Assembly (NCBI GenBank): GCA_900315315.1
Contig: OMYT01000008.1
Coordinates: forward strand, 1 to 64,000
Source: an uncultured Eubacteriales bacterium
GTDB taxonomy: Bacteria > Bacillota > Clostridia > Christensenellales > Aristaeellaceae
DNA length: 64,000 bases
Reading direction: 5' to 3'
Each line of letters opens with the position of its first letter. The stretch's first letter is position 1. The notes beneath the pieces were generated by a model. It saw only the letters and a list, made by a program, of their open reading frames with translations. It made no database searches and had not been told where the DNA came from. Shown here one piece after another: positions 17,851 to 57,022 of this stretch. The translations under genes and the position numbers were made by a program.

Positions 17851-17888
17851 GACCGAAGGGGTGTGGGGACGATCGGAAAGCCCCCTTA
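17851..17888 (-). repeat. Interspersed structured repeat, copy R1 (short form)
   Basis: Reading the minus strand, TAAGGGGGCTTTCCGATC is followed by CCCC and CCCCTTCGG. The central hairpin of the long copies is missing. The TAA is the stop codon of the preceding platform gene, so the element starts exactly at the end of the coding sequence. Related copies are at about 19.9, 20.6, 52.9 and 57.0 kb. Confidence 0.75.
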
Positions 17889-18956
17889 CATTGAACTCAA
17901 TACACCTGCCATCGGCAGCATGACGCTCAGCAGGATCGCACCGATGACGATGGAGAGCAGCGCCACCAGGGTGGGTTCGACGATGGAGATCAGGTGATCC
18001 AGTCCGTCTTCAACCTGCTGCTCGTAGATCTCGGCAATCTTTTCCATGACCTGGGGTTCATGACCCGAGGCGGCGCCGACTTTCAGCATCCGGTTATGGA
18101 AGTCCGCAAACAGTCCGCTTTCGGACATGGCGTCGGAGAATGTCTTGTCCTTCTTCATCTCTTCGCGGATGAAGTTCACTTTGTCGATGGATTCCTGGTC
18201 GGCCAGCGCAGCGGGCGCCATTTCCAGCGCGTTCTCGATGGGGAAGCCGCTCTGGAGCATCAGGCCCAGGATGCCGGCAACGCGGGAGGCGGACAGCTTC
18301 TGCGCCAGTCTGCGCACCGGCGGGAACAGGTTCTTGAGGAAGGTCATGACCTTTTCCTTGTGCTTCGTCTTCAGCAGGATGAAGATCACGATTGCGCAGA
18401 TCACGATCACAGCGATCAGGGCCAGCACGATCCAGCCGACCCAGGAGCCGACGGACATCAGCACGGAGCCGCTGCTCGTCGAATCCACACCCAGGGAAGC
18501 CAGCACCCGGCGGAAAATCGGCAGAACCCGCCAGAGCAGGATGCCGATGATCACAACCAGCATCACGCCCAGCACCAGCGGATAAGTGATGGCGCTGACC
18601 GCGGCGGACCGGATCCGGCCCTCCCGCTGATAGTAAGTCGACAGGCTGACCATGATGTCTTCCAGGCGGCCGGTCTGTTCACCGATGTCCACCATTTCGA
18701 TCATGTAGGACGGCCAGTCCTCTTCGTTCTCCTTCATGGCGACGTAAAGGGAACCGGTCTCATCCACCACCTTGTACAGGTTGGTATAGGGATGATGCTT
18801 GCTCTTGTCGTTCCCCTTCATCTCGTCTTCGGCCAGCATCTCGATGCCGTCCCGGAGCGTCATGCCGGAACTGAGCATCAGCGCGATCTGGTCGCAGAAG
18901 CTGCTCAGCTCTTCAGAGGACATAATCCTTTTTTTCTTTTTCGCTCCGTCTGCCAT
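17886..18956 (-). CDS. Type II secretion / type IV pilus platform protein (GspF/PilC family)
   Basis: 356 residues, ATG preceded by GGAGGG. Two T2SSF cytoplasmic domains are visible: SSGMTLRDGIEMLAEDE with YPSYMIEMVDIGEQTGRLED near the N-terminus, and LMLQSGFPIENALEMA with KVGAASGHEPQVMEKIAEIYE near the C-terminus. They are separated by two membrane helices (YPLVLGVMLVVIIGILLW and VGWIVLALIAVIVICAIVIF), with a third at the C-terminus (LSIVIGAILLSVMLP). This is the inner-membrane platform on which pilus ATPases act, and the natural partner of the PilT protein encoded downstream. Slightly shorter than the usual 400 residues. Confidence 0.9.
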   Translation of the reverse strand: MADGAKKKKRIMSSEELSSFCDQIALMLSSGMTLRDGIEMLAEDEMKGNDKSKHHPYTNLYKVVDETGSLYVAMKENEEDWPSYMIEMVDIGEQTGRLEDIMVSLSTYYQREGRIRSAAVSAITYPLVLGVMLVVIIGILLWRVLPIFRRVLASLGVDSTSSGSVLMSVGSWVGWIVLALIAVIVICAIVIFILLKTKHKEKVMTFLKNLFPPVRRLAQKLSASRVAGILGLMLQSGFPIENALEMAPAALADQESIDKVNFIREEMKKDKTFSDAMSESGLFADFHNRMLKVGAASGHEPQVMEKIAEIYEQQVEDGLDHLISIVEPTLVALLSIVIGAILLSVMLPMAGVLSSM

Positions 18957-19012
18957 TATGCGATCCCTCCATTTGCCGCTTTATGCTTAAAAGGCTTATT
19001 GCTCAGCTTGCT

Positions 19013-19837
19013 TTAATAGTAACGTTCCGTGGTATAGGTGTCCGTCTTGGAACTGGCGTTCAGTTCAGCCGTGGGATCGAAGAACTTCTCTTCCCCGTTC
19101 ACAACGGCAACCACCCAGGCGTGATAGGTATTCGCGCCGACGGTTCCGATCATCAGGCGGGCCGGGACCCCCTGGGACCGCAGCATCGCACAGGTCATGG
19201 CGGACAGATCCTGGCAGATACCCATCTTGGTATTCCAGCACTCGTCGATCTGCGGCAGCTGTCCGGGTTTCACCGTCACGCTCTTGATAAAGTCGTACAC
19301 GAAATTGCTGGTAACGTAATTGCAGACTGCTTTATAGATCTCCGCCTGGTCCGTCATGTCCTTGCACATCTCTGTTGCGTACTGGACGCAGGCGGTATTC
19401 TCGTCATAGTTCACATACTGGTTCGGATAAAGGAAGCAGCTCAGTTCGTCGGGCATCTTGACGTTCAGCTTCACGGTGCCCTCTTTGGCGTATTTCTTGC
19501 CGCTCGCGTTCTCGAACAGGGCAACCTGGTATTTTCCGCTTCCGAACTGGAGCGGGAAAACTTCGTAGTTGCCTTCGCCGTTCAGGTCGTAATTCAGCTT
19601 GGCGCCCGCGGTGGACACCTGAAGCTTCAGCCGCTTGTTGGACTTTTTGCCCTTGACCATGATATAACCCTGGTCCATATGGCTGCAGTCAATGGTCATC
19701 TTCCCGTCTTTCTTGACCGTTTTGCCGCTGGCCTCCGGAAGATTGAGCCCGATCGCGATTGCCATGAAAACCGCACAGGCAGCAAGAATCAGCGCAGCGC
19801 ATATGATAATACGCTTTTTGCCCATTCTCGCGATCAT
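19013..19837 (-). CDS. Secreted transglutaminase-like protein
   Basis: About 274 residues from an ATG with AGGAGG nine bases upstream; longer versions would read through a repeat element and are rejected. The N-terminal membrane segment (IIICAALILAACAVFMAIAI) is a signal anchor. A beta-rich region follows, then a transglutaminase-like cysteine-protease fold with the triad Cys in GICQDLSAM, His in TYHAWVV and Asp in KFFDPTAE. Such extracytoplasmic domains act as peptidases or crosslinking enzymes. It is 56 bp upstream of the pilus platform gene on the same strand, so it may be co-transcribed and process or crosslink pilus-like subunits; that link is inference. Confidence 0.8.
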   Translation of the reverse strand: MIARMGKKRIIICAALILAACAVFMAIAIGLNLPEASGKTVKKDGKMTIDCSHMDQGYIMVKGKKSNKRLKLQVSTAGAKLNYDLNGEGNYEVFPLQFGSGKYQVALFENASGKKYAKEGTVKLNVKMPDELSCFLYPNQYVNYDENTACVQYATEMCKDMTDQAEIYKAVCNYVTSNFVYDFIKSVTVKPGQLPQIDECWNTKMGICQDLSAMTCAMLRSQGVPARLMIGTVGANTYHAWVVAVVNGEEKFFDPTAELNASSKTDTYTTERYY

Positions 19838-19864
19838 AGCTATTCCCTCCTGTAGCACAGTACC

Positions 19865-19975
19865 AAAAACCCCATGTTGCCCGAAGGTCCAGGGGGTTCG
19901 CGCGCCCGGAAAACTGTCCGGTGGACAGTTTTCAGTAAGAAACGGGCGGCAGCCATGGGCACTCGGAAAGCCCAA
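19865..19975 (-). repeat. Interspersed structured repeat, copy R2 (long form)
   Basis: Minus-strand order: GGGCTTTCCGAG, GCCGCCCGTT, a 9-bp hairpin AAACTGTCC-ACC-GGACAGTTT, CCGGGCGC, GAACCCCC, CCTTCGGG, then ATGGGGTTTTTGG. The CGCCCG/CGGGCG stem encloses the hairpin. The final CCCC...GGGGTTTTT could act as a terminator. It lies in the gap between HU and the transglutaminase-like gene. Confidence 0.8.
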
Positions 19976-20059
19976 GCCAGTCTCTGATACCCTATTAGTG
20001 ATATGATTCTATCACATTACCATCCCTTTTGCAACCGTTTTAAAAAATGGCGCAAAAAA

Positions 20060-20093
20060 AACCGCGGCTTGTTGAAACCGCGGCTCTGTGAAT
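20060..20093 (-). terminator. Terminator of the HU gene
   Basis: CCGCGG appears twice, separated by a TTTCAACAAG loop region that extends the pairing (TTT with AAG), and the minus strand continues TTTTTTTT. It lies about 10 bp after the HU stop codon, a textbook intrinsic terminator. Confidence 0.85.
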
Positions 20094-20098
20094 CGGAA

Positions 20099-20374
20099 TT
20101 ACTTGTTTACAGCGTCCTTCAGCGCCTTGCCGGCCTTGAAAGCGGGGGCCTTGCAGGCAGCGATCTTCACGGAATCGCCGGTGCGGGGGTTGCGGGCAAC
20201 GCGCGCGGGACGGGTCTTCGCTTCGAAGGTGCCGAAGCCGATCAGCTGAACTTTTTCACCCTTGGCCATGCTCTCAGCAATCACGTCCAGAACGGCGTTC
20301 AGAGCAGCTTCGGATTCTTTCTTGGTCATTTCGGTTTTGGCTGCCAGAGCAGTAATCAGTTCACCCTTATTCAT
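20099..20374 (-). CDS. hup: HU-family DNA-binding protein
   Basis: 91 residues, the standard HU length, with AAGGAGG before the [23 protein letters not shown] is the HU dimerisation helix pair, [13 protein letters not shown] the strand leading to the DNA-binding arms, and [19 protein letters not shown] the arm and C-terminal region. Acts as a nucleoid-associated, DNA-bending homodimer. Monocistronic: it has its own promoter and terminator and separates the pilus-like operon from the exopolysaccharide locus. Confidence 0.97.
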
Positions 20375-20409
20375 TGATGGGTTCCCTCCTTGATTGATAT
20401 TGCGTTATC

Positions 20410-20437
20410 AGTATATCCAAAGAAATACTCCTGTCAA
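20410..20437 (-). promoter_or_regulatory. Promoter of the HU gene
   Basis: On the minus strand TTGACA, a 16-base spacer and TATACT lie about 35 bases upstream of the HU start codon. Close to the sigma-A consensus, as expected of a highly expressed nucleoid protein. Confidence 0.85.
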
Positions 20438-20556
20438 GTCTTTTTTCGCCGGAATGCCTTATTTTGTGCCATTTGGGGGTTATAATGCACAAAATGTGCC
20501 GTTTCATGCCCGTTTTCACCCATCTATCTTATAAATCCCGAAGGTTTAAAGCAATC

Positions 20557-20659
20557 GGCCGAAGGGGTTCAGGGGTTCGTAGCGCCCGGAAATAAAGCCA
20601 GTGGCTTTATTTCAGCGAAGAACGGGCGGCAGCCCAGGAAGACCGGAAAGCCCCCTTAT
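20557..20659 (-). repeat. Interspersed structured repeat, copy R3 (long form, overlaps a gene end)
   Basis: Same layout as R2 and R4, but the central hairpin is AATAAAGCC-ACT-GGCTTTATT on the minus strand instead of AAACTGTCC/GGACAGTTT. Every base change on one arm is matched on the other. The surrounding CCGCCCG/CGGGCGC and AAGGGG/CCCCTT segments are kept. Half of the element is translated as the last residues of the adjacent epimerase gene. Confidence 0.85.
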
Positions 20660-21716
20660 AATCTGCAAACCATTCACAGAACGCCCTCAAGCCTTCCCTC
20701 ACATCTGTCCTCGGCTCATACCCATAATCCCGGGCGAGCGGTCCCGTATCCGCATACGTCACCGTCACATCCCCCAGCTGCATCCCGACATACTCCCGCA
20801 GAGACTCAAAATCAGTGTCCGCCGGCATAATCCCGGCCCGAACCAGTTCCTCCTGCAGGATCTCCAGAAACTTCATCAGGTTCACCGGGCTTCCCCGCCC
20901 GATATTATAAATTGCGTACGGCGCGGTTTTTCGTCCGTCCGCCATAGGCTCCGCAACAGGAGCCCCCTGCATCACACGGAAAATCCCTTCAATAATATCA
21001 TCTATATAGGTAAAATCTCGTTCACACTCCCCGTGGTTGAAAACCCGGATCCTCTCCCCCGCCACCAGTTTTTTCGCGGCGGAAAAATAAAACATGTCCG
21101 GCCGCCCGGCGGGTCCGTAGACAGTGAAAAAACGCAGCCCAGTCGCCGGGACCCCGTAGATCTTTGCGTAAGCATACGCCAGCAGTTCATCGCACTTCTT
21201 TGTCGCCGCGTAAAGAGACATGGGCTCGTCCGTCCGGTCATCTGTGGAAAACGGAATATGAGGATTCTCCCCATAAATCGAGGAAGAAGAAGCGAAAACC
21301 AGATGCTTGACCGGATGTTTCCTGCACGCTTCCAGAATGTTGCAGAATCCCGTCAGGTTATTCTCGAGGCTTTCTTCTGGATGGTCAATCGAATACCGAA
21401 CTCCTGCCTGCGCCGCCAGATGGACGACAAGATCAAACCGGTACTGTTCGAAAAGCATCTCAATCAGTTTAAGGTTTGCAATCGATTCCTTCACGAATAC
21501 ATGCCTGACCGGTAGTTCCTCTGTCAGCCGCTCAATCTGGTCAAGCCGGTACTCCTTCAGTACCGGATCATAATAATCATTCATATTATCCAGGCTGACA
21601 AGAACACCCGTCCCCATCTCCTTCGCCAGCCGCATAACCAGATTCGCCCCAATAAATCCCGGAGACCCGGTCACCAGGATTCTTTTTCCCAGTAAATCGA
21701 TTGCTTGTTTTTGCAT
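20607..21716 (-). CDS. UDP-glucuronate 4-epimerase-like SDR enzyme
   Basis: About 369 residues from the ATG of MQKQAID; a TTG five codons upstream is less likely. Extended SDR with Rossmann motif TGSPGFIGA, LDNMNDYYDPVLKEYRL (typical of UDP-glucuronate epimerases), HLAAQAGVRYS, the catalytic YAATK (YxxxK), and FTVYGPAGRPDM. It should interconvert UDP-glucuronate and UDP-galacturonate, a precursor for the locus polysaccharide; other UDP-sugar 4-epimerase activity cannot be excluded. It is the last gene of the exopolysaccharide locus. The last 15 residues (GAFRSSWAAARSSLK) and the stop codon come from repeat copy R3, so the native C-terminus has been replaced or extended. Confidence 0.85.
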   Translation of the reverse strand: MQKQAIDLLGKRILVTGSPGFIGANLVMRLAKEMGTGVLVSLDNMNDYYDPVLKEYRLDQIERLTEELPVRHVFVKESIANLKLIEMLFEQYRFDLVVHLAAQAGVRYSIDHPEESLENNLTGFCNILEACRKHPVKHLVFASSSSIYGENPHIPFSTDDRTDEPMSLYAATKKCDELLAYAYAKIYGVPATGLRFFTVYGPAGRPDMFYFSAAKKLVAGERIRVFNHGECERDFTYIDDIIEGIFRVMQGAPVAEPMADGRKTAPYAIYNIGRGSPVNLMKFLEILQEELVRAGIMPADTDFESLREYVGMQLGDVTVTYADTGPLARDYGYEPRTDVREGLRAFCEWFADYKGAFRSSWAAARSSLK

Positions 21717-21749
21717 TCCAAACCTTACCAATCTTCTAATTGCAGACGT

Positions 21750-22850
21750 TCAATTTGGGAAAACACTCTGATGTTGTGTGCAGCCAATACCAGATGCAGA
21801 GTCTGTCAACATTGCACTGATCATCCTTCGCATCATTTCCTGAATCGTCCTGTCACTGTCTCTTCTCGATGGCACCCAGCCTAGCTCTCTTAAGGCACGT
21901 GTGTCAAGGTCCATATATAACGTATCCGGAAACGCCCTCTCTTTTTCTTTCTGTATATCAAATACAACTCCTATACCGTTTTCTTTGGCAACCCTATCAG
22001 CCATATCAGCAATGGAACAGTATGTTTCTTCATCAGCAGCATTGTAAATTCCGTTCTCTTTTCCCTTCAATAAGACGGTAAGAATTGCTGTAACTGCATC
22101 AGTCGTATACAGATAACTCCGTTCTGTTTCTCCCCGGGTCTTCAGTACAATATCCTTTTTCTCAATTACACATCTTGCCATGTATGCAAAAAGACGTTGA
22201 TCCCCGTAATATACGCCGGGACCGAATGTCTGCGTTAGTCTGACGACTTTTGCCGGTACTCCGTATTCGCTTGCATAAGCCTGACACAATGCCTCTCCCG
22301 CAATTTTACTGATTGGGTAACTGTTCCGAAGATTACTGGGTGAAAAACAGCCTATATCCTTTTCTGAAACGCAATGGCCTCTTTCAGGATAACCGTACAC
22401 CTCCATACTGGACAGGAAAACATAAGACTTTACTTTTTTTTCCAGAGCCAGCTTCAAAGTATGATCAGTACCGAAAACTATCGTCTGTATGGTTTCCACC
22501 GCATGCTCAACAAAATCCCGGGAAGCAGTTTGACTCGCGCAGTGGATGATAAAATCAATCGAATCGGCTATATGGAAATCGTCTTCAACATTTCCGACGG
22601 TAAAACTGATCGCATCATCATCGAGAAATCCCTCAAAAACTGACCTTGCTCGATCCAGGTCGCGAACCAGTAAAAGAAGCTTCATCCGCAAACCGCGCAG
22701 CTTATTCGCGCGATGCAATGCCTTGACCAGGGTCTTTCCGATAAGCCCGGTTGCCCCAGTGATAAAAATGGTTCTGCCGCGCAAATCCTCCCAGGGAATA
22801 AAATCCGCTTCGTTTATTCTCTCCAGATCTTCCGTCAGTATGTTCGTCAT
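21750..22850 (-). CDS. NAD-dependent epimerase/dehydratase (SDR)
   Basis: 366 residues with GGATGAG before the ATG. Extended SDR: TGATGLIGK nucleotide motif, FIIHCASQTASRDFV, FLSSMEVYG, catalytic NSYPISK (YxxxK), and TFGPGVYYGDQR. It lies three bases downstream of an IspD/TarI-like cytidylyltransferase and near licD. In Firmicutes surface-glycan loci this trio is common and is thought to make and attach a CDP-activated polyol or similar group; substrate not visible from sequence. The last ~15 residues look unlike the family and may be a variable tail. Confidence 0.8.
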   Translation of the reverse strand: MTNILTEDLERINEADFIPWEDLRGRTIFITGATGLIGKTLVKALHRANKLRGLRMKLLLLVRDLDRARSVFEGFLDDDAISFTVGNVEDDFHIADSIDFIIHCASQTASRDFVEHAVETIQTIVFGTDHTLKLALEKKVKSYVFLSSMEVYGYPERGHCVSEKDIGCFSPSNLRNSYPISKIAGEALCQAYASEYGVPAKVVRLTQTFGPGVYYGDQRLFAYMARCVIEKKDIVLKTRGETERSYLYTTDAVTAILTVLLKGKENGIYNAADEETYCSIADMADRVAKENGIGVVFDIQKEKERAFPDTLYMDLDTRALRELGWVPSRRDSDRTIQEMMRRMISAMLTDSASGIGCTQHQSVFPN

Positions 22851-22853
22851 GCT

Positions 22854-23585
22854 CTACTCATCCAATCCATAGATTTGGGCGTTCTCTTTTGCCTCAAGGA
22901 TAGCCCTCGCAATATAAAAATCTGCCGGCGTTGTGATTTTGATATTCTCGATAGGTCCGTCAATCAGATGAAGGTACATCCCCCAGCTTTGCATCATTGT
23001 GCATGAATCAATAATGTTGTTCTGGCCTTCCGCAAGGAACTTTTCGTGTGCTGCCAGAATATCCCTTAGCCAAAAGCTTTGAGGCGCTTTCGCAACTCTT
23101 GAGCATTCCCTCATTGGTACCTGTTCAATGATTGAATCCGATGAATTCACAACAAGGATAGTTTCGGTAACTAATCCTGTAGTGATAGCGGAACCATAAG
23201 CAAGAACACTATTGATATTATCTGTGATTACTTTCTCGTTAATCAGCGGTCGGACACCGTCATGAATCAGTACGATGCTTTGTTCAGTAGGATCAAGTTC
23301 CCTGGCTGCCTTTAAGCCATTGTATATGGAAAGCTGTCCGGTTTTTCCTCCCGGCACGACTCTTTTGACTTTATCCAGTCTGTATATATACTTCAGTTTC
23401 TGAAAATGATTGATCCATTCCGTGATGCAGACAACCACAATAGCGTCAACCAGCGGATGATTCTCGAAATGTTCAATTGTGTGGACAATAATAGGCTTGT
23501 TAAACAACGTCAGGAATTGCTTTGGCTTTTCCTTGCTGTTCATTCTGCTTCCTGTGCCGCCGGCAAATATTATCGCGATATTCAT
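22854..23585 (-). CDS. IspD/TarI-family cytidylyltransferase
   Basis: 243 residues, ATG after GGGAG. Motifs: FAGGTGSRM (CTP binding), PKQFL, VPGGKTGQLSIYNGL, IHDGVRPLI and the late KITTPADFYIA. It transfers CMP to a sugar- or polyol-phosphate. IspD itself would be in an isoprenoid context; here the neighbours are SDR, LicD and glycosyltransferases, so TarI/Bcs1-like production of a CDP-polyol (for example CDP-ribitol) for glycan decoration is more likely. That substrate is inference from context. Confidence 0.85.
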   Translation of the reverse strand: MNIAIIFAGGTGSRMNSKEKPKQFLTLFNKPIIVHTIEHFENHPLVDAIVVVCITEWINHFQKLKYIYRLDKVKRVVPGGKTGQLSIYNGLKAARELDPTEQSIVLIHDGVRPLINEKVITDNINSVLAYGSAITTGLVTETILVVNSSDSIIEQVPMRECSRVAKAPQSFWLRDILAAHEKFLAEGQNNIIDSCTMMQSWGMYLHLIDGPIENIKITTPADFYIARAILEAKENAQIYGLDE

Positions 23586-23639
23586 TCTGAACTCCCGTAT
23601 TGAACCCGATTGCGTATTTTCACGATCAGATCAGTCATT

Positions 23640-24539
23640 TTAGGTTGATCTGTTTTCATTGGTAAATGTGATTCTCTGTATATAGTGATGTTCCCGCTGT
23701 TCTTCAGGAGGTATGACCATATAATCACCGTAAAGTTTCTTTAAATATGTGTCATATCCTTTGGGCACAGGGAAAGATGTGCACTCAAATCTCATAGGTA
23801 CTGCTTCTGTCACCCATTCTCTGGGATATATTTCGCCGAAATAATGCTTTCTCCCGCTTGGGATCCCGACCATTCGGGAGTTCTCGTCATGATACTGATT
23901 CACACGGTCAACCACATCATACCATTCCTTTGACTTTCGATAAGAAAAAAGGCGGCCTGTGCAAAGGCATATTTTCCTGATCACAGTAACAGGCGGATTG
24001 TTTTCTTTCCTGTTCCTGGCACATTCATATTCGAATACCAAGCCTGCAATGATTCGGCAGATCTCCGCGCGTACACCCCGGAGCAATCTGAAAACAGCGG
24101 AATTCGGCAGGTTCTCAATCTGAAAGACATCAATTTCCAATCCGTGCCTGAAACCGTTTTCATCGCAGACTATAACGTTTTGATTCTCAATTTTCCCGCA
24201 TCGATAGTTGCTGTGCTGTTTATAATTTGGAGCGCGGAAAACATACTTCCCGTGAAAATAATCATCAAACAGGTCTTTCATTCTTTCGAAATCTTTTCTC
24301 GGCATATTGATGTCCATATCATCATCCCATGGAATAAACCCATGATGTCTGACCGCCCCCAGAACAGATCCACCGCCCAATGTAGCGTTTAAGCCATTTG
24401 CGGCAAACATTTCAAACAGATCCATCGCCATTTCCAGATAAACCTGCTGCACCTGTTTCAGTTCGAATTGTGTCATGCATCGCATGTCACTTCTTCGTTT
24501 TATTTCTTCATGAAATCGTTGCTTATGATTTGCAATCAT
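23640..24539 (-). CDS. LicD-family phosphotransferase
   Basis: 299 residues, AGGAGAG before the ATG. LicD signature: TLGGGSVLGAVRHHG, then GFIPWDDDMDINMPR with the metal-binding acidic cluster, and later EIDVFQIENLP. The C-terminus has FPVPKGYDTYLKKLYGDYM, usual for the family. LicD enzymes transfer phosphocholine or another phospho-alcohol from a CDP donor to cell-surface glycans. The adjacent cytidylyltransferase probably supplies the donor. No choline kinase or choline transporter is present, which argues for a non-choline substrate such as a polyol phosphate. Confidence 0.88.
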   Translation of the reverse strand: MIANHKQRFHEEIKRRSDMRCMTQFELKQVQQVYLEMAMDLFEMFAANGLNATLGGGSVLGAVRHHGFIPWDDDMDINMPRKDFERMKDLFDDYFHGKYVFRAPNYKQHSNYRCGKIENQNVIVCDENGFRHGLEIDVFQIENLPNSAVFRLLRGVRAEICRIIAGLVFEYECARNRKENNPPVTVIRKICLCTGRLFSYRKSKEWYDVVDRVNQYHDENSRMVGIPSGRKHYFGEIYPREWVTEAVPMRFECTSFPVPKGYDTYLKKLYGDYMVIPPEEQREHHYIQRITFTNENRST

Positions 24540-24601
24540 ATGCTGATCTCTCCTACCAAATTGACTTGTCGATTATCTTCGTTTTCTCTTGGCATTCTAT
24601 C

Positions 24602-25543
24602 TTATTTTCTTTTGGAACAAATCGTTCTTTTGACCTTGAGAATAGTATTTTGTGTTGTAATTAACATAAGAAGCTTCATGACAAAAAAAACAAACTTCTT
24701 TCTTGGATACTTCCTCACATGGTTGTTAGCGTTGATCAGTTTCAAATACCAGGTCAGGCATTTGCTAAAGTCTGACAAAGAATGAAAAACCTTCTCGTAT
24801 GAGAAGCGATAGTGGAGAGCCAACTCATCGTCTGTCACACTTCCCAGCAACTCCAGTAATAATCTCTTCTGTGTGATTATTGAGCATTGTTTTTGCTTTT
24901 CATAGTTTATATTTGTGATTCGATTCACATGAATACGACGATATAATAAAACTTCCGGTAAAATCTCTATCTTTCCGCCGGTTCTGCTGATTTTCTTGCA
25001 CAAATCATAATCCTGCGCATAAGTTAAGTTTTCGTCATAGGTAATTTTATGTTCCAGCAATGTCTGATGGCGAATAAACATAGTCGGATGAACAGGGCCT
25101 GGATAGTAGAAAAGAGTCTTGATCCGATAATAATCCATATCATTAATCCTGGTTATATGTGATTTGTTGTTTGCGGCAAAATTCTGTACGGTTGCGCCGC
25201 ACATCACAACATCTGGATGGCTTTCCATGAATAAATACTGCCTCTCAAATCGTGTCGGCAGTGAAATATCATCAGCATCCATTCGGGCAATATACTGTCC
25301 GTTTGCATTTTCCAATCCAATATTCAGCGATTTGGTTATTCCAATGTTTTTCTGATTGTGAATGATCTTTATTCGTTTATCCCGGATCGATTTCAAGTAT
25401 GCACCAGTCCCGTTTGTGGACCCATCGTTAATTATAATGAATTCAAAATCCTGAAAAGTTTGATTCAGAATACTGTTCACAGCCTCTTGCAGCATTTGAA
25501 TTTCTGTGTTGTATGTGGGCATGATGACACTGATCTTAACCAA
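24602..25543 (-). CDS. Family 2 glycosyltransferase
   Basis: 313 residues. The start is a TTG with GAGGTGG upstream, giving MVKISVIMPTYNTE, the canonical GT-A beginning. IIINDGST and the DXD-type ARMDADDIS metal site are present, then FERQYLFMESHPDV. It should add one sugar from a nucleotide-sugar donor to the lipid-linked repeat unit on the cytoplasmic side. Specificity cannot be read. Visibly A+T-rich like the genes beside it. Confidence 0.88.
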   Translation of the reverse strand: MVKISVIMPTYNTEIQMLQEAVNSILNQTFQDFEFIIINDGSTNGTGAYLKSIRDKRIKIIHNQKNIGITKSLNIGLENANGQYIARMDADDISLPTRFERQYLFMESHPDVVMCGATVQNFAANNKSHITRINDMDYYRIKTLFYYPGPVHPTMFIRHQTLLEHKITYDENLTYAQDYDLCKKISRTGGKIEILPEVLLYRRIHVNRITNINYEKQKQCSIITQKRLLLELLGSVTDDELALHYRFSYEKVFHSLSDFSKCLTWYLKLINANNHVRKYPRKKFVFFVMKLLMLITTQNTILKVKRTICSKRK

Positions 25544-25683
25544 AGACTCGTACCACCTCTTGTTTTTTGTTTTTCATGGTAAAGCAATTCTCTCCCATCC
25601 ATCTGATGAAAAGATTCTTATTGTCCTTTCCGACACAGGTTAAATTTCTTTCTTCGTTTCTGATACAGATATAACAAAAACGT

Positions 25684-27253: not shown

Positions 27254-27342
27254 GATTGATTGTCTCCTATTGAAGGTATACGAAAAGTCGATATTTCATT
27301 TCTTCATTGGAGAAGCCTGGTGGTTTTTTTAAGGCATTGCAA

Positions 27343-28845: not shown

Positions 28846-28851
28846 CTTTTA

Positions 28852-44754: not shown

Positions 44755-44766
44755 ACGTCCTTTCTT

Positions 44767-44886: not shown

Positions 44887-44939
44887 ATGGGTTTCTCCTC
44901 TGGGAAACGCATGAATTTCCTGTGTAATCATCCTCTCTC

Positions 44940-50500: not shown

Positions 50501-51084
50501 CCGTTGAATACGTGTACTTCCTGGGCATAACCGTCCGGTCCCTGGGCAGGCTTGCCTTCCCCGTCAACCCACGACGCCTTGCAAAGCTTCCAATACCTCG
50601 TGTACTCGAATTCCTGATGCGGCTCGATAACGTTTCCCTGATCGTCGTAATAGTACGTGTCCAGGATCATCGCGCTCTTATACTTGCGGGTGATCATGGC
50701 ATAACCATCCGGGCCGTCGACCAGGTTGCCGTCCTTGTCGTACCATTCCCGTTTGACCAGGACTTTTTTGTTGAATTTGCTCTTGATATAGGCATAACCG
50801 TCCCGGTTGTTGACCAGGTTGCCCGCCTTGTCCAGGTACTCTTCCTTCACCACCACGTTATTCGTGCCGTAGGTATACCGTACCGTGGCATAGCCTTTGT
50901 CGTCCGGTACCGTGAGAGCGCCGTTCCGGTCCACATAGGATGTGGAGAGAACAATCTTCCCCCACCGGTCCTTCTCGCTCACCTGTTTCAGGTTGGTGGA
51001 CAGTTCCGCGTGCGCGGCGAAACTTGTCGCCAAAGCCGTTGCCAGCAGCAACAGAATAAAGACACTTACAATTATCTTTTTCAT
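47551..51084 (-). CDS. Secreted protein made of about 34 YD-type repeats
   Basis: 1,177 residues. A signal peptide (LLLLATALATSFAAHA), then almost wholly 32-34-residue units of the form GYA-x-x-x-R-x-YD-x-x-G-x-x-x-x-E-x-Y-(Y/F/L)-D/G-x-x-G/E-x-P. The units resemble RHS/YD repeats, which form wound beta-sheet filaments or shells. Near the C-terminus a higher-order block of three units recurs: RTWLDDKHATSEAWF and close variants occur five times. No C-terminal toxin, protease or anchor domain is visible; the chain ends in an acidic tail (YDEPEEDQ). It is second in the LoaP-led locus and coupled by TAATG to the BY-kinase gene, so it is probably made with the polysaccharide machinery as a surface or matrix component. 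No described exopolysaccharide protein that I know of matches it. Confidence 0.8.
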   Translation of the reverse strand: MKKIIVSVFILLLLATALATSFAAHAELSTNLKQVSEKDRWGKIVLSTSYVDRNGALTVPDDKGYATVRYTYGTNNVVVKEEYLDKAGNLVNNRDGYAYIKSKFNKKVLVKREWYDKDGNLVDGPDGYAMITRKYKSAMILDTYYYDDQGNVIEPHQEFEYTRYWKLCKASWVDGEGKPAQGPDGYAQEVHVFNGRDELEIAYYNADGSLFMNKKKGYARVKNDIVKGRNHATRYYDEHEQLTAGPEGWAYALYTYVPSSTVRTEMYYNADGSLFYTKRGYCGVTKLPTTKNRVLEETYYVDEGVRGNCQEGYSKVVRTFAGNRNWIASERYYDVNDQPMIVPDYGYAWYRNTYKTGKVAQIDYYDTENNPIIASAGYATEKNTYDRKRLTEKLFLGTDQKTPVNGKDGYAKTVYGYNKEGRVTSEAWFDSEGRAVAAKENATEIRSEWDGDKKISESYWANGDPIDGENGYHEVRMEYNGNGKVTKKTYLDQTGHRVMTKAGYAETVTEYDSEGGTISTRYYDADGNLMKIPEKEYTYVRNIPLQDLTFTEYTAPGVEPEQETKGVLTEYYGTDGKLMTISDGYAFRIQKKDEQGFLTEEAYYLPDGGNAVCKGGYHKFTRENSEKGYPLQIAYWGTEDEPVRCKDGYHRIDRTWLDDKHATSEAWFDEQNLPIATKDIYVRIERDFAGNGKTVAERYFDAEGKPTDCKNGYAGLTRDYDEDGRMTEERYLDGSGQLKLNSSQYAILRRTYDENGRTASEWYLGTKEEPVRCKDGYHKIDRTWLDDKHATCEAWFDETGAPLAVKDSYARIERDYDENGKTIAERYFDGDHQPILCKNGYAALTRAYDDDGRMTEERYLDGNGNLILRDTGYAVLRRSYDEGGYVAAEWYLGTAEEPVRNADGYHRIERTWLDDKHATSEAWYDEQDRLTTIKDNPYAKITREFNDRKQNICERYYGPDGAPVLSKDGYAVRMREYDGQDLVAKEWYLGINEEPVRNADGYHRIERTWLDDKHATSEAWFNEEGLPTEAKDNTYVKVTREFDDRKQNICERYFGPDDVPILCKSGYAVRMREYDEKGLVAKEWYLGTREEPILSTDGYHKVERTWMDDKHKTSEAWFDEADKPMPLKDVYVKVVWEYDDALNRISEKYYGADGKPTACKDGYREVHWVYDEPEEDQ

Positions 51085-51160
51085 ATTTCTCCTGTACTCA
51101 GATTATTCTGGTTTGCTCGATCCTGTCAAAGCCGTTACAGTCAGAGCTGTAACTGCCTCC

Positions 51161-51667
51161 TCATTCCTTCAGTTCGACAATCTCATACTCCACCCAGGTT
51201 CTCACAAGCTGTTTTGCGAAAGGAATCTCAATCATCATCCGGGATCCCCGGTGATCGACCTTGACAATCCGTGTTTCCAGGCCCTCGAATGCGCCGTCGC
51301 AGATCCGGATGCGGTCGCCTTCCCGATAAACCTGTGTTTTGCCGATGACACCGTCGCTTTTGAGAAGCGTCAGTGCAAAAGCTTCGTCGTTCCCTTTCAG
51401 TTCATAGTTCCTGTCCGAATCCGACAGACAGCGGATCACTTCGTGCATTCTCCAGAGTTCCGTTATCGTCGGCTTGTCGTCTTCGTCCTCAAAATAGAGA
51501 AACAGATATCCCGGCAGAAGGTCGTGTATGATATCTACGCTTTTTCCTTTGCTCCAGGTATGCTGTACCTGCTTCGGACTGATGGCGCGGCAGCCGAAAC
51601 GTTCCGCCGCGATCTTCGCCAGCGTATTGCATTTCGCTGTCTCACAGAACAGGCAATAGATCACCAT
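51161..51667 (-). CDS. loaP: LoaP-like NusG-family antiterminator
   Basis: About 168 residues from the ATG of MVIYCLFCETAKCN, with GGAG ten bases upstream. An NGN domain (IYCLFCETAKCNTLAKIAAE, LLPGYLFLYFED) and a C-terminal KOW domain (YREGDRIRICDGAFEGLETR). NusG paralogues of the LoaP/RfaH/UpxY group travel with RNA polymerase and suppress termination in long polysaccharide operons. It is the first gene of a co-oriented locus of about 30 kb and has its own promoter, just the position expected. Housekeeping NusG would sit beside secE and ribosomal protein genes, which are absent. Confidence 0.88.
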   Translation of the reverse strand: MVIYCLFCETAKCNTLAKIAAERFGCRAISPKQVQHTWSKGKSVDIIHDLLPGYLFLYFEDEDDKPTITELWRMHEVIRCLSDSDRNYELKGNDEAFALTLLKSDGVIGKTQVYREGDRIRICDGAFEGLETRIVKVDHRGSRMMIEIPFAKQLVRTWVEYEIVELKE

Positions 51668-51850
51668 GCCGCACCACTCCAGAACATAGCTTCGCCGTGA
51701 CAGTATGCTCCGCATCCTGCCCCGGTCTCCGGATACATCTTCGGATGTCTTTCAGCCCGGCAAGTGACATCGGTGCTGCAGTTGCATCCATCCGGAAAAA
51801 GTTACATAGTTATGCAAAGCTATTATAGCACAAAACTTCGTGTAATTCAA
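51668..51850 (-). promoter_or_regulatory. Promoter and leader of the exopolysaccharide operon
   Basis: On the minus strand TTGAAT (51845-51850), a 17-base spacer and TATAAT (51822-51827) form a strong sigma-A promoter. The leader of about 150 nt contains a small hairpin, ACATC-CGAA-GATGT (around 51735-51748). LoaP-type regulators act through an RNA hairpin in the operon leader, so this is a candidate target. I see no intrinsic terminator in the leader. Confidence 0.7.
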
Positions 51851-51889
51851 TTCTTTTGCGATTTGCGGCAGATTTTTTTGCGGTCATAT

Positions 51890-52790
51890 TTAACAGTTTT
51901 CCAGAAAAGCCTCGATATACCCGGCAGCCTCGTTCACGGGGTCGCCCTGCATATCCAGCCAGATGATGCGGGGGTCCCGCCGGAACCAGGTCATCTGCCG
52001 CTTGGCAAACTTCTTGATGGCGTTGCCGAGTTCCTCCACCATCTGCCCGTACCCGATCTTCCCGGTCAGGTACCAGGTCAGGTATTTGTATTCCAGGCCC
52101 AGCTTGACGAGGAATTCTTCGCTGACGCCGTCCTCCAGCATCGCGCGGACTTCGTCCGCCATGCCTTCCTGCAGCCGGCGCTCCAGCCGCTCGTCTATGC
52201 GCTGCTTCAGGATCTCCCGGGGCCAGGTGACGCCGAACTTCAGCAGTTCATACCGCGGGTTCTTTCTCCCCGGATGGTAGTCGTCCGCTTCCAGCCGTTC
52301 CAGCGCCCGCATGACCCGGTGACGGTTTTTCGGATCGATCTCCGTGTCCGGCAGCTTTTCCTTCAGCATCTCATACAGGGCAGGCGTGTCAAAAGTCTCC
52401 AGATGCGCCCGGAGATCATGGTCCGGGGATTTGTCGCTCAGTTCATACCCGTCGGCCACGGCGTCCACATACAGGCCCGTACCGCCGACCAGGAAAGGAA
52501 CCGCGCCGCGGGAAAGGATCCCGTCGATCGCCGTATAGGCAAGGCGCTGGAAGTCGGCCATGGAAAAAAACTCCCCCGGCTCGCATATGTCCAGCAGATG
52601 ATGGGGTACGCCCTTCATCTCCTCCGCCGTCACCTTGCCTGAACCCAGGTCCATCCGACGGTATACCTGCCGCGAATCCGCGGATACGATCTCCCCGCCG
52701 AAGCGCCCCGCAAGTTCAATCCCCAGGGAAGATTTCCCCGAGGCATTGGTCCCCTCAATGACAATCAGTTTCGGTAAAATATTTCATCAT
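51890..52790 (-). CDS. miaA: tRNA dimethylallyltransferase MiaA (apparent frameshift near start)
   Basis: MiaA adds a dimethylallyl group to A37 of tRNAs reading UNN codons. Family motifs: P-loop GTNASGKSS, SADSRQVYRRMDLGSGK, VPHHLLDICEPGEFFSMADF, FLVGGTGLYVDAVADGY, NRHRVMRALERLE and KFAKRQMTWFRRDPRI. The P-loop region has no in-frame ATG. The only ATGs, after AAGGA, are one base out of frame. Removing one base from the four-base run at 52776-52779 gives MMKYLPKLIVIEGTNASGKS, a normal start. So either the sequence has a one-base insertion error or the gene is disrupted. A short product from an internal ATG would lack the P-loop and be inactive. Confidence 0.85.
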
Positions 52791-52805
52791 TCCTTACCCA
52801 TCAAA

Positions 52806-52922
52806 ATAAAACCCCATACAGGCCGAAGGGATTAGGGGTTCGTCGCGCCCGGAAAACTGTCCAGTGGACAGTTTTCAGCAGAGAACGGGCGGTAGCCCAG
52901 GAAGATCGGAAAGCCCCCTTAA
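52806..52922 (-). repeat. Interspersed structured repeat, copy R4 (long form)
   Basis: Minus strand: TAAGGGGGCTTTCCGATC, CTGGGCTACCGCCCG, the hairpin AAAACTGTCC-ACT-GGACAGTTTT, CCGGGCGCG, GAACCCC, CCCTTCGG, then GGGGTTTTATTTT. The TAA is the stop codon of the zinc-ribbon gene. The CCCC...GGGGTTTTATTTT end could terminate transcription before miaA. Confidence 0.85.
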
Positions 52923-53623
52923 GATCCCAGTATCCCGTCCAGATACTCCGTCTTTCCTCCTGTTTTCCCCGCGTAAGCCTGAACCAGGGACTGCACCAGC
53001 AGTTCCTGCTGTTCCGGGAGCAGCTTCCCGTCCTTTTTGATCTCCTTGATCATCTTGGCGATCGGCACCGCCAGCTTCTTGTCCTTGTTCCGCTCCAGCC
53101 GGATCCCGAACCAGTTGCCCATGATCTCGTTGTTCCCTTCCAGGAATATTTCGAGATATTCCCGGCACAGCCGCTGGAGATACTCCCGCTGCTTCTGCTG
53201 CGGATCGTCAAACAGCGCGCAGGTTTCCTGCAGCTGCGGATCGTCAAACAGCTGGGCGCGCATCCTGTCGCGCCGCTCCCCGGAGAAATTGCCCGGCGTC
53301 CGGTATATTTCGAGGATATAGCACTTGATAATGGAGAAATCCAGGGCGATAACGCGCTTCTTTTTCTGCTCCTCCGTACCGACGAACAGCAGCTCCCATT
53401 TGATCTCCCGGCTGTCCGGGCAGGCGTTCAGGCCCTGGTTTAAAATCTTCTTCCGGTCCGGGAAGCTGGTCACGGCCAATGCCTTCCGGATCCACTTTTC
53501 CGCTTCCTCGTCCCGGGGCTCGTCCGGATTCACCGCTTCCGGCAGCTTTGCGCCGCAGTAAGGGCAGAAGGCCATGCCTTCGCCGTCGATCTTCTTTCCG
53601 CACTGAATGCAGGTCATGCTCAT
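52919..53623 (-). CDS. Zinc-ribbon protein of unknown function
   Basis: 234 residues, AAGGAG before the ATG. The N-terminus is a four-cysteine zinc ribbon (CIQCGKK and FCPYCGAKL). The rest is helical and charged, with EAEKWIRKALAVTSFPDRKK reminiscent of TPR-like helices and EYLQRLCREYLEIFLEG. No membrane segment, so cytoplasmic. No partner is evident. The stop codon is formed by the first bases of repeat R4. Confidence 0.75.
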   Translation of the reverse strand: MSMTCIQCGKKIDGEGMAFCPYCGAKLPEAVNPDEPRDEEAEKWIRKALAVTSFPDRKKILNQGLNACPDSREIKWELLFVGTEEQKKKRVIALDFSIIKCYILEIYRTPGNFSGERRDRMRAQLFDDPQLQETCALFDDPQQKQREYLQRLCREYLEIFLEGNNEIMGNWFGIRLERNKDKKLAVPIAKMIKEIKKDGKLLPEQQELLVQSLVQAYAGKTGGKTEYLDGILGS

Positions 53624-53641
53624 TCCGTTTGTCTCCTTCCG

Positions 53642-54637
53642 TCACGCCTGGTCCAGAATCGTGTCGATCTTTTCCAGTTCTTCTTCCGTCAGCTCCGGCG
53701 CGTTCAGCGCCTGCACGTTCTCCCGGATCTGCTCCGGCCGGCTGGCGCCGATCAGGGCGCTGGTCACCACCGGATCCCGCAGCACCCACTGCAGGGCCAG
53801 CTGCGTCAGCGTCTCTCCTCTCGCGTCCGCGATCGTCTTCAGGCTCCGGATCGTCTGCAGCGTCTTTTCGTCCAGCCGGTCCGCCTTCAGGTAGCGGCCG
53901 TCCCGGGCCATCCGGGAATCCTCCGGGATTCCGTTCAGGTATTTCCCGGTCAGCAGGCCGTTGGCCAGCGGTGCGAAAGCGATCGCACCGACGCCTTCCT
54001 CCCGCAGCACCTCCGTCAGGCCCTGCTCGATCCTCCGGTTCAGCATCGAATAGTTCGGCTGGTGAATCAGGCAGGGCGTGCCCAGCCTGCGCAGCTCCCG
54101 GATTGCCCGCCGCGCCTGGTCTGGATCGTAGTAATTGCTGATGCCGGCATACAGGGCTTTCCCGCTCCGGACAATCTGGTCCAGCGCGCCCATGGTCTCC
54201 TCCACGGGCGTCTCCGGGTCCGGCCGGTGATGATAGAACACGTCCACATAGTCAACGTGCATCCGCTTCAGGCTCTGATCGATGCTGGCGATCAGGTACT
54301 TCCTGCTGCCGCGGTCTCCGTAAGGCCCGGCCCACATGTCATACCCGGCCTTGGTGGAAAGGAACAGCTCGTCCCGGTGCGTGTGCCAGTCCGCGTCCAT
54401 GTGGAGGCCGAAGTTCCGCTCCGCTTCCCCGTAGGGCGGGCCGTAGTTGTTGGCCAGGTCAAAGTGGGTAATGCCCAGGTCAAAGGCGGTGCGCAGCAGC
54501 GCCCGCTGGTCCGTGAAGGGCGTAATGTTCCCGAAATTGTGCCACAGGCCCAGGGAAATCCCCGGCAGCAGCACGCCGCTCCTGCCGCAGCGGCGGTAGG
54601 TCATCTTCTCATATCGGTCAGCCGCAGGTTTATACAT
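53642..54637 (-). CDS. Aldo/keto reductase, YghZ/Gpr-like
   Basis: 331 residues, GAGGGAG before the ATG. THFDLANNYGPPYGEAERNF holds the catalytic Asp and Tyr; STKAGYDMWAGPYG and VDVFYHHRPDPETP supply Lys and His. The WHNFG and GPPYG motifs match the YghZ (L-glyceraldehyde 3-phosphate reductase) branch with SALIGASRPEQI at the NADPH site. Probably detoxifies or interconverts small aldehydes. Its start overlaps the end of a second AKR gene by eight bases. Confidence 0.88.
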   Translation of the reverse strand: MYKPAADRYEKMTYRRCGRSGVLLPGISLGLWHNFGNITPFTDQRALLRTAFDLGITHFDLANNYGPPYGEAERNFGLHMDADWHTHRDELFLSTKAGYDMWAGPYGDRGSRKYLIASIDQSLKRMHVDYVDVFYHHRPDPETPVEETMGALDQIVRSGKALYAGISNYYDPDQARRAIRELRRLGTPCLIHQPNYSMLNRRIEQGLTEVLREEGVGAIAFAPLANGLLTGKYLNGIPEDSRMARDGRYLKADRLDEKTLQTIRSLKTIADARGETLTQLALQWVLRDPVVTSALIGASRPEQIRENVQALNAPELTEEELEKIDTILDQA

Positions 54638-55607
54638 GGTCCGTATCTCCCTCTTCCAGCCATTTTGCTTCTTCCGCCGTCAGCGGGTTGGCAGCGGCCC
54701 GGATGCTGCTGTCCAGCCGCTCCGCCTTCGTGGTGCTGACTACGGCAAACAGGTTCATGGGACTGGCAAACGCATAGCGCATCGCAATCTCCGGCACCGT
54801 GATTCCCTTCCGCTGCGCCATCTCTTCCGCCCGCTTCAGCCGCCCCAGGTTCTCCGGATAAAGATATCCCTTCTGCGCGTAGATGTCCAGTACACGTTTT
54901 GCACCTTCCGGATCGTCTGCGCGGAATTTGCCGCTGAAAAAGCCCCGGCCCAGGCTGGAATAGGCAATCACCGGCATCTGTGTCCCCGTATACCAGTCCC
55001 GGTCCGCCTGATGTTCCGGCCCGGAAACGGAAACGCAGCCCCCGCCCCACAGATCGTCCATCTGCAGGGCCAGACCGTAGTTCGGGCTGGAAACGCTGAA
55101 GTCCTCGATCCGGTTCCGCAGCGCGTACAGGTTCGCTTCCCGGATCCGGTCTACCGTCCAGTTGGAAACGCCGAACAGCCGGATTTTTCCTTCACGTTTC
55201 ACGTCGTGCAGCGTTTCCATGATCTCGCTGAGCGGGGTTTCCGGATCGTCCCGGTGCAGCAGGAAAACGTCGATATAATCTGTTTGCAGCGTCTTCAGGC
55301 TGGTTTCCAGCTGTTCCAGGATCACCTGCCGGTTCACCTTCACGATCCCGTTCCGGATATCCCCGCACTTTGTCAGCACGATCACCTTTTCCCGGTTTCC
55401 TCTCCGCCGGATCCAGCCGCCGAGCACTTCCTCCGCCCGGCCGTAGCTGCGGGCGCAGTCGAAGAAATTGATCCCCCGCTCCGCGGCGCCGTCGAGCAGC
55501 GCGTCTGCGTTCTCTCCGGCCGTCATCGGGTCAACCGCCGTCCCGAACACAATCCGCGACGCCGGCTGCGGCAGCATCTCAAGACTTCCGTAGGTCATCT
55601 TTTCCAT
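54630..55607 (-). CDS. Aldo/keto reductase
   Basis: 325 residues. FFDCARSYGRAEEVLGGWI (Asp, Tyr), VLTKCG (Lys) and VFLLHRDDPETP (His) give the AKR catalytic tetrad; FGVSNWTVDRIREAN is the usual cofactor-side loop. Related to plant-type and YdjG-like AKRs; substrate unknown. Translationally coupled to the YghZ-like enzyme, so the pair is co-expressed. Confidence 0.85.
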   Translation of the reverse strand: MEKMTYGSLEMLPQPASRIVFGTAVDPMTAGENADALLDGAAERGINFFDCARSYGRAEEVLGGWIRRRGNREKVIVLTKCGDIRNGIVKVNRQVILEQLETSLKTLQTDYIDVFLLHRDDPETPLSEIMETLHDVKREGKIRLFGVSNWTVDRIREANLYALRNRIEDFSVSSPNYGLALQMDDLWGGGCVSVSGPEHQADRDWYTGTQMPVIAYSSLGRGFFSGKFRADDPEGAKRVLDIYAQKGYLYPENLGRLKRAEEMAQRKGITVPEIAMRYAFASPMNLFAVVSTTKAERLDSSIRAAANPLTAEEAKWLEEGDTDHV

Positions 55608-55637
55608 CTTTTTCCCTCCCTGTCGGGCCGTTTCCGG

Positions 55638-56936
55638 TTATTTGGTCACCTTGACCTTGATTCCCTTGCTTTCCGCCCACTGCTGTGCATAGCTGCCTTC
55701 CGGAGCGGTGATGATCAGCTTCGGCGAGCATCCGTCAAATGCGTTATCGGCAATCTGCTGTACGGATGCGGGCAGCTTCACCTGCGACAGTTTCTGGCAG
55801 TCGCCGAAGGCCTTCTCCCCGATCTCGGCAACGCCTTCCGGAATGGTTACCCGCGAAAGCCGGATGCAGTTCAGAAAAGCGTTTTTTCTGATCTCCGTGA
55901 CCGACGGCGGAATCACGATGTCGGACAACATTTTTGCGTCCCTGCACATACCGGCCGGGATCACTGTCAGCTTTGCAGGCAGTTCGATCTTTCCGTATTT
56001 ACTGTTGCAGAATGCCTGTTCCGGAAGTTTGGTGATAGTCTCCGGCAGTTTCAGATTCCTGATTCCGGTCTCAAAAGCGTTCACGCCAATCCTGGCCACA
56101 GTAGACGGAATTCGGATCTGACTGATTTTTGTTGCATTGACCGCATAGGAACCGATTTCTTCTACCCCTTCCGGAATCTTCAGGGTCGTAAGGCTCTTGA
56201 CAAAAATTGCCCGGTTTCCCAATACCTTCAGCGTCCGCGGCAAATCGATTTGCTTCACCTTGGCGGACCAGATGACCCGGTCGTTGTCCAGTGAATTGAC
56301 TGCAACCACCGTCATCCCGTCGATCTGCTCCGGAATCGCGATCTTCTTGGTTCCTCCGCCCAGATAGGCGCACACACCGATCTCGCTGTCGGAAAGTTTG
56401 TAATACTTGCACCCTTCGCCGATATAGAGTTTGAAATAATCTTTATTCATCAGGCAGTTATGGATTCTGCTGCCGTTGATTGCCACGGGGTACTCATAAT
56501 ACTCCTGTTTCAGCAGTTCGGATTCTCCCCCTTTGAGAACGCGCTGCGCGTCTGTTATTGCGTATTCTCCCGGCTCCACGTCAGTATAGAAATACATAAT
56601 GCTGTCCTGGGTATGGATCATGTCATAGTCCCGGTAACTGTATAAAATGACTTCATGATCCAATTTCTCGGCGTTGTACAGCGTAACACCCGCCGGCAGG
56701 AAAACCTCCGTCACCTTTTCCGGAACGGAAGCCGCGTCAAGGAATTTCACCTCATACTCCCCGATTTTCGGCGGCACCAGCATCGCGTTTTCCCGTTCCG
56801 TCGCCGGAACCGTCAGCACAACCACGCCATCCTCCGTCTGCGTATAAGTACAGCCGTCCTGTTCCGCCGGTTCAGCGAAAACCATTCCCGGCAGAATGAA
56901 CAGAACCGCCAGCAGAATCAGAAGCGTCCGTCTCAT
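55638..56936 (-). CDS. Secreted BspA-type leucine-rich repeat protein
   Basis: 432 residues, AGGAGG before the ATG. A signal peptide (LLAVLFILPGMVFA), a beta-rich N-terminal domain of about 190 residues, then LRR_5 repeats of 23 residues (IPEGVEEIGSYAVNATKISQ, IPSTVARIGVNAFETGIRNL, IPEGVAEIGEKAFGDCQKLS), closing with GCSPKLIITAPEGSYAQQW, the usual cap of these proteins. No anchor motif. BspA-like LRR proteins of gut bacteria and protists mediate adhesion; ligand unknown. Confidence 0.88.
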   Translation of the reverse strand: MRRTLLILLAVLFILPGMVFAEPAEQDGCTYTQTEDGVVVLTVPATERENAMLVPPKIGEYEVKFLDAASVPEKVTEVFLPAGVTLYNAEKLDHEVILYSYRDYDMIHTQDSIMYFYTDVEPGEYAITDAQRVLKGGESELLKQEYYEYPVAINGSRIHNCLMNKDYFKLYIGEGCKYYKLSDSEIGVCAYLGGGTKKIAIPEQIDGMTVVAVNSLDNDRVIWSAKVKQIDLPRTLKVLGNRAIFVKSLTTLKIPEGVEEIGSYAVNATKISQIRIPSTVARIGVNAFETGIRNLKLPETITKLPEQAFCNSKYGKIELPAKLTVIPAGMCRDAKMLSDIVIPPSVTEIRKNAFLNCIRLSRVTIPEGVAEIGEKAFGDCQKLSQVKLPASVQQIADNAFDGCSPKLIITAPEGSYAQQWAESKGIKVKVTK

Positions 56937-56970
56937 TTTCGCTTATCCTCCTGAATCAATTCAATATTCC

Positions 56971-57022
56971 CGCCCGAAGGTCGCGGGTACTTGGAAAGCC
57001 CCTGGACGCGTCCGCAGACGCG
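56971..57022 (-). repeat. Interspersed structured repeat, copy R5 (short, diverged)
   Basis: Minus strand: a small hairpin CGCGTC-TGCG-GACGCG is followed by GGGGCTTTCCAAG, CCCGCG and CCTTCGGG. It keeps the two ends of the family (GGGGCTTTCC and CCTTCGGG) but not the central CCGCCCG/CGGGCG arm. It lies between a sugar-transport operon terminator and the LRR gene. Confidence 0.6.

Follow-up and report, generated by a model that had tools for sequence, protein, structure and literature searches.

Repetitive extragenic palindromic (REP)-like repeats have long raised the question whether they are junk, sites in DNA or elements that work in RNA. The same question is posed by five related repeats, R1 to R5, in a stretch of 64,000 nucleotides (the window) of contig OMYT01000008.1, from an uncultured Eubacteriales bacterium. 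The original prediction, made from the letters of this stretch, had proposed a 3′ untranslated RNA element, a class of terminators or a REP-like mobile element. The repeats are copies of one high-copy, high-turnover interspersed element, which was found in phage contigs and, among Clostridia, in a single family. It is best read as a mobile, REP-like repeat with a structure of a new type, although it is not a REP by the defining tag and partner. Regarding its function, we tentatively favor the explanation, with a probability of roughly 0.46, that the element folds into a pseudoknot that acts in sense RNA as a roadblock behind the stop codon, and that it spreads as a non-autonomous element.

Distribution and architecture of the element

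The genome of origin (4.26 Mb in 197 contigs, 89% complete) contains 199 matches to the pattern GGCTTTCCN{8,38}CTTCGG, vs. four for the reversed control pattern. With R2 as a BLAST query, 41 matches were obtained (40 of 133 candidates scored). Of 300 family genomes, 58, belonging to 8 of 50 genera, have the exact motif (0 to 402 occurrences per genome), and none has the control pattern. In a survey of 391 genomes of the class, the genome of origin alone matched (0/389 outside the family). A scan of contigs in GTDB added at least 111 stretches, many of the listed titles referring to goat, sheep, deer or rumen samples and to Clostridia. Ten short, unannotated human-faecal Bacteriophage sp. records match among the phage records, and plasmid records gave no match. 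For the window and 20 element-bearing loci, no Rfam 15 family was matched at the gathering score, and at E-values up to 1 the R4 region gave just five weak matches, to unrelated families. In the open-access literature searched, the repeat is described nowhere and the string ctttccgatcgccc is likewise absent.

The core of the element reads 5′-S1a(7-10)-TTT-S2a(CCGA)-TC-S1b-L3-T-S2b(TCGG), in which S1 and S2 are stems and L3 is a third strand. In the short form, the order is therefore S1a, TTTCCGATC, S1b, L3 and TTCGG, with TTTCCGATC and TTCGG as the invariant parts; behind TTCGG, only a weak consensus is seen. S1 mostly has 7-10 bp, and its foot varies between copies (CCA/TGG, TAA/TTA, GCGA/TCGC, TTG/CAA, CCAAA/TTTGG and others). 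That the 5′ arm is part of this stem, and that the 3′ arm of S1 and the tail covary with it, had been overlooked in the original prediction. When S1 and the central hairpin of 37 long copies are taken together, 97.5% of the cells are paired vs. 85.9% in shuffles, none of 500 shuffles reaching the observed value; slid controls gave 37-69%. A GC hairpin, H0 (GGATTTCGCGTCTGCGGACGCG), frequently precedes copies of the CCAGGG class; in the window it stands at 57001-57030 on the minus strand, in front of R5.

The second helix, S2, pairs the loop sequence CCGA with the tail TCGG. Because loop and tail change together in a compensated swap, S2 is supported by covariation as well. When 9-nt TTT-loop hairpins were listed without fixing the tail, a GCG loop was accompanied by a CGC tail in 8/8 cases. 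With the tail base left free, 62 matches were found in 11 of 37 genomes, 40 of them coming from one genome, G188; 60 of the 61 GCG loops had a CGC tail and one had CGG, while the remaining match was a TCG loop with CGG, i.e., a wobble. In a wider set of fetched DNA, which overlaps with these 62 matches, CCG goes with CGG in 361/370 copies and GCG with CGC in 50/51, including all nine GCG loops on viral contigs fetched later. The subtype with GCG loop and CGC tail is present in G188 (40 copies), in other members of genus g44, in G008 and in G162. Two crossing helices are each backed by compensatory changes, and since S1, S2 and the relation between S1 and L3 all covary, the core is predicted to fold as an H-type pseudoknot.

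The third strand, which runs from S1b to TTCGG, tracks the stem closely. It is four nucleotides shorter than S1 in 237 of 316 copies, and the C-run before TTCGG is one shorter than the G-run of S1a in 97 of the 118 distinct classes (viral contigs 37/39, genome of origin plus its relative G112 34/41, other genera 45/54). This analysis left out 435 TTTCC...TTCGG places in which S1 was shorter than 5 bp or the top C was missing. If L3 is placed parallel to S1a, G stands opposite C at 352 of 365 positions and A opposite A or T at 98 of 107. In the 99 of the 118 classes with an S1 of at least 7 bp, the parallel register fits at 0.77, vs. 0.43-0.65 for shifted registers and 0.44 for the antiparallel one. 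When L3 was permuted among classes of equal size, none of 5000 permutations reached the observed value. Such a mirror-like relation is not expected from strand copying; we read it as contact: L3 would lie in the groove of S1.

Long copies contain an additional hairpin inserted between S2a and S1b. In an alignment of 37 copies from the genome of origin (38 before the false long-form match L025:2505 was removed), the central hairpin falls into five stem classes, ACTGTC (22 copies), ACGGGC (7), ACGAGC (6), ATAAAGC (1) and ATAGAGC (1), the complements being always present. The coordinated arm change between R2/R4 and R3, from which selected pairing had been proposed, is real: five of the ten pairs differ in both arms, and 99.7% of the central-hairpin cells are paired (1/370 unpaired).

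The changed arms have also been proposed to be swapped cassettes. Indeed, modules at one site differ between relatives: the R4 site has a short form in G112 instead of a long one, and the L035 site has a different module there. Moreover, modules nest, as one copy lacks the central hairpin and another has a second module inside the first; the terminal loops of several inserts are CCACTGG. Only five central stem classes occur, and their loop is nearly constant. Exchange of whole cassettes does not predict, however, that S1, S2 and L3 change jointly, by many small steps and on different contigs, nor that each central pair is broken in at most one of 37 copies. The covariation originally described is thus correct and module exchange also occurs, as the paired class changes and the differences with G112 indicate, but swapping in place of selected pairing is very unlikely. 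Large nested hairpin modules were seen in the loop of the element at L065:1968, in L076 near 1573 (minus strand) and at L027:2392 and 2491, e.g., GCAAGGAATCGCACGCGCACCGCGG.

Placement behind genes and a possible roadblock in mRNA

Genes were called with our own simple codon-usage caller. In the genome of origin, the upstream gene lies in sense orientation for 60 copies and in antisense for 16, which agrees with the placement 3′ of genes that had been suggested from the window. The start of 28 of the 60 sense copies lies between -4 and +8 nt from the upstream stop codon (22 nt being subtracted for H0), and in many copies the TAA stop forms the foot of S1. Within 7 nt of the stop, 17 of 45 copies were counted vs. 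6.6 expected under uniform placement, a value reached in one of 20,000 simulations; H0-bearing copies were here measured from S1, a choice that disfavors the peak. On the viral contigs (50 stretches), 44 copies are in sense and 10 in antisense, with 21 of the 44 sense copies at -4 to +8 nt.

Many of the viral contigs are phage, since PHROGs returned many families of head, portal, terminase and tail proteins for 50 proteins near their copies. A sense copy follows within 30 nt for 11 of 33 major-capsid genes and 27 of 423 other genes (Fisher p 1.6e-5), or, with one gene per 80% cluster, for 7/20 vs. 19/304 (p 4e-4). Capsid genes were found by likeness to nine picked beside copies, plus PHROGs. 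To cover those missed by likeness, PHROGs was applied to capsid-sized genes of 260-520 aa (86 genes in 52 clusters, with 52 representatives, 48 plus four from the scan above); within this size range it added ten capsid genes, none with a copy behind. The viral loci had been selected for carrying the element, which applies to capsid and other genes alike.

These patterns suggest that the element works in sense RNA in the genome of origin and in CCG-type phage copies. A knot at the upstream stop codon could form a roadblock to the terminating ribosome, to exonucleases, or to both, and would thereby set the yield of the upstream gene against that of the downstream gene. The element would spread as a non-autonomous unit. 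A more specific version, which we consider unlikely, describes a mobile triple-strand RNA pseudoknot, in which a base code between L3 and the groove (C facing G-C, A/U facing A-U) gives a mechanically stable knot, and in which sense insertion at stop codons, perhaps via translated mRNA, allows hosts and phages to fix the output of the preceding gene, e.g., that of the major capsid protein.

Other explanations for a structure behind a stop codon are available. A GC-rich stem right behind the stop codon in operons could be an intrinsic transcription terminator, as is found after binding-protein genes of cellulolytic Clostridia, and one report on other Clostridia describes internal terminators that set stoichiometry (PMC9045158). 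TTTT occurs within 20 nt downstream, however, in only 27% of 77 copies in the genome of origin, 13% of 30 in G112, 22% of 54 on viral contigs and 11% of 245 in other genera. A hairpin directly followed by a U-tract is lacking in most copies, and the stem is followed by a C-rich strand that varies with it. Although the low U content is compatible with a weak terminator, the terminator class put forward earlier is unsupported because a U-tract is present in a minority of copies, and we regard it as very unlikely. A readthrough or frameshift pseudoknot was rejected, since the frame is not kept: among 49 stop-proximal copies that have a sense gene downstream, an open frame leads from the stop into that gene in only five (genome of origin 3/20, G112 1/4, viral contigs 0/20, others 1/5).

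A number of observations weigh against the roadblock explanation, whose placement counts depend on a simple gene caller. In G112 the bias is slight (16 copies in sense, 13 in antisense, with 6/16 stop-proximal) and the stop peak is not significant (4/10 vs. 2.0 expected). In other genera, 84 copies are in sense and 61 in antisense, only 5 of the 84 are stop-proximal, and convergent pairs are often seen. GCG-type copies on viral contigs are mostly antisense (9 of the 12 with a called upstream gene). Because of these group counts, the post-stop rule is limited to the genome of origin and the CCG-type phage copies and does not extend to the whole family. The capsid enrichment shrinks when only wide gaps are considered (p 0.026 at gaps of at least 30 nt and 0.15 at 50 nt or more), and the space behind these genes may thus account for some of the effect. 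Regarding structure, complementarity of L3 drops to 34 of 135 where the stem base is not G, L3 being mostly A there, and the code is hence strict for G only. When folded as single RNAs, R2 (z -3.4), R3 (z -1.9) and R4 (z -2.4) do better than shuffles, but R1 (z -0.4) and R5 (z -0.5) do not. Finally, G.T (25) and A.C (24) mismatches in S1 are equally common, and the covariation is therefore silent on which strand folds and on whether it does so as RNA or DNA.

Turnover, mobility and the copies in the window

The presence of the element is patchy and changes fast. The DNA of G112 is about 87-91% identical to the genome of origin in several stretches. When 78 copies were compared with G112 (about 0.9 Mb), synteny extended over both flanks for 32 of them, in 26 intervals; 23 of these intervals are empty in G112, two have a different element-like sequence (L014, L035) and one has a tail remnant (L012). 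At the R1 site, 28 of 29 other loci in the genus lack the element, and G251 holds an inverted copy. Of the 16 genomes with a match for the R4 site, which are not all syntenic, just two, G000 and G112, carry an element there. The intergenic DNA is too diverged to fix the ends of the insert, and a target duplication was not established. At the R1 and R4 sites of some genus members, another low-complexity repeat, AATGAAGAATGAAAAATGAA or AATGAACAATGAACA, lies between the genes (L272, L273, L275, L305, L308, L310, L311, L312). G112 and G305 share an insert at the R1 site (L265, L269), in which TCCAAATC precedes GATTTGGGTAACA or a close variant of it.

Close neighbors are arranged differently among genomes. 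In other genera, 33 of 69 close neighbors form convergent pairs, of which the commonest joins two stem classes, and such inverted pairs are often about 80-130 bp apart. In the part of the genome of origin that was examined, close neighbors are in tandem only (5/5). For distant motif halves, among the matches listed and the genome parts examined, only hairpin modules and no gene-bearing autonomous copy were found.

These features fit the idea that the element is purely selfish DNA. The pseudoknot would then be a structure of single-stranded DNA for a transposase or nickase, in the way that REP hairpins serve REP-associated tyrosine transposases (RAYTs), and the position behind stop codons would reflect tolerated sites. 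Besides the fast turnover, this is supported by the convergent pairs, which resemble bacterial interspersed mosaic elements (BIMEs) and REP doublets forming hairpins (REPINs), by the lack of strand preference among the mismatches, by the inverted copy of G251 and by the antisense GCG-type copies. Moreover, RAYT-sized Y1 proteins are present in four copy-bearing genus members, G112, G236, G251 and G279. Nevertheless, Y1_Tnp was unmatched in the five densest relatives surveyed, G024, G033, G099, G188 and G207 (the last 66% complete), while eight genus members (G026, G066, G132, G149, G163, G185, G211, G263) have Y1 but no exact-motif copy. None of 12 fetched Y1 loci has a full short element, two having half of the motif. 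Neutral tolerance also predicts a spread wider than the peak at stop codons, and no sense bias. We regard selfish DNA as a serious possibility, somewhat less probable than the roadblock.

The mobilizer was sought in the genome of origin and 30 relatives. As Y1 presence does not track the element among them, RAYT/IS200 was rejected in that role. In the genome of origin, PF01797 gave three fragments, and the stretches read contain no GGCTTTCC. The original remark that no transposase is evident thus holds: no associated transposase could be found. One of the stretches examined, G000:C49:1484-1767 (L188), is IS605-like, with a split tnpA frame and, by eye, a tnpB-like gene behind, and has no GGCTTTCC. 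Y1 proteins of about 250-340 aa, i.e., of RAYT size, are often present several per genome (G066, G132, G163, G185, G211, G263, G112, G251 and other genus members).

The copies in the window illustrate these forms. All five originally described were found in the same orientation, on the minus strand like the surrounding called genes, and the earlier coordinates were correct to within some bases. R1 (17853-17888) is a short form of 36 nt with S1a, the TTTCCGATC loop, S1b, the third strand and TTCGG. The copy opens with the TAA stop of the upstream T2SS-F gene (17886-17888), and its S1 is imperfect, with TAA against ACA. The original description had overlooked that R1 reveals the long copies to be a short core plus an insert, and that both R1 and R4 start precisely where the upstream stop codon lies.

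The three long forms are about 100 nt each. R2 (19881-19979), the core plus a loop module with the ACTGTC/GACAGT hairpin, lies between a gene for HU and a transglutaminase-like gene, and its site is empty in G112. R3 (20559-20659) belongs to the ATAAAGC/GCTTTAT hairpin class. The epimerase open reading frame upstream of it (20607-21674, minus strand) runs without a stop into the element and terminates within the central hairpin of R3; copies L011, L020 and L035 in the genome of origin likewise contain the end of the upstream frame. R4 (52823-52922) starts at the TAA stop of its upstream gene (52919-52921). R5 (56974-57000) is a degenerate short form that comprises the core only.

R3 and R4 flank a 32-kb interval (20515-52904) that is absent at the same place in G112. 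The relative has no more than about 1.1 kb there, containing two short elements and miaA, the latter in the opposite orientation. Exchange between copies of the element may have brought this interval in.

Relation to known systems

The family, found in Clostridia and in phages, combines covariation in both pseudoknot helices with a third strand that tracks the stem. With hundreds of natural variants, it can be tested directly whether a mobile repeat acts as a roadblock in mRNA and whether there is a triple-strand base code. The family additionally raises the question what machinery places short elements at stop codons. The original prediction depended on related genomes having further copies and on arms that pair; relatives do carry copies, and their arms do pair.

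Exonuclease-resistant RNAs (xrRNAs) and the element for nuclear expression (ENE) are compact pseudoknot or triple-helix RNAs in which a third strand forms a mechanical barrier. Their likeness to the element is an idea only, as its sequence and topology differ.

The internal terminators of cellulolytic Clostridia share with the element a stem-loop immediately behind an operon's first gene, which in that report sets stoichiometry through termination (PMC9045158). Most copies of the element differ from them in lacking a U-tract, and the copies make up one interspersed family instead of separate hairpins.

The likeness to REPINs lies in the inverted pairs of two ends at about 80-130 bp in other genera. 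Unlike REPINs, close neighbors in the examined part of the genome of origin are tandem, and elsewhere the commonest pairs join two different stem classes.

The closest comparison is with the REPs and BIMEs of enterobacteria, including the CGTC REPs that have no dedicated transposase. These are likewise short, GC-rich and palindromic, occur in hundreds of intergenic copies, form convergent pairs in some genomes and have a share of copies within 15 nt of stop codons (PMC12306157; PMC3733652). The element is, like them, a high-copy short palindrome between genes. According to one of these reports, ribosomes stall at REPs of E. coli that lie within 15 nt of the stop codon, and REPs protect mRNA (PMC12306157). 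The element differs in having neither a GTAG nor a CGTC tag, none being conserved within 40 nt up- or downstream of 85 copies in the genome of origin, in lacking a RAYT partner among the genomes searched, and in its nested loop modules. REPs are simple hairpins, whereas the element is a predicted pseudoknot with a covarying third strand, and, unlike REPs, it is also found in phage contigs, often after capsid genes.

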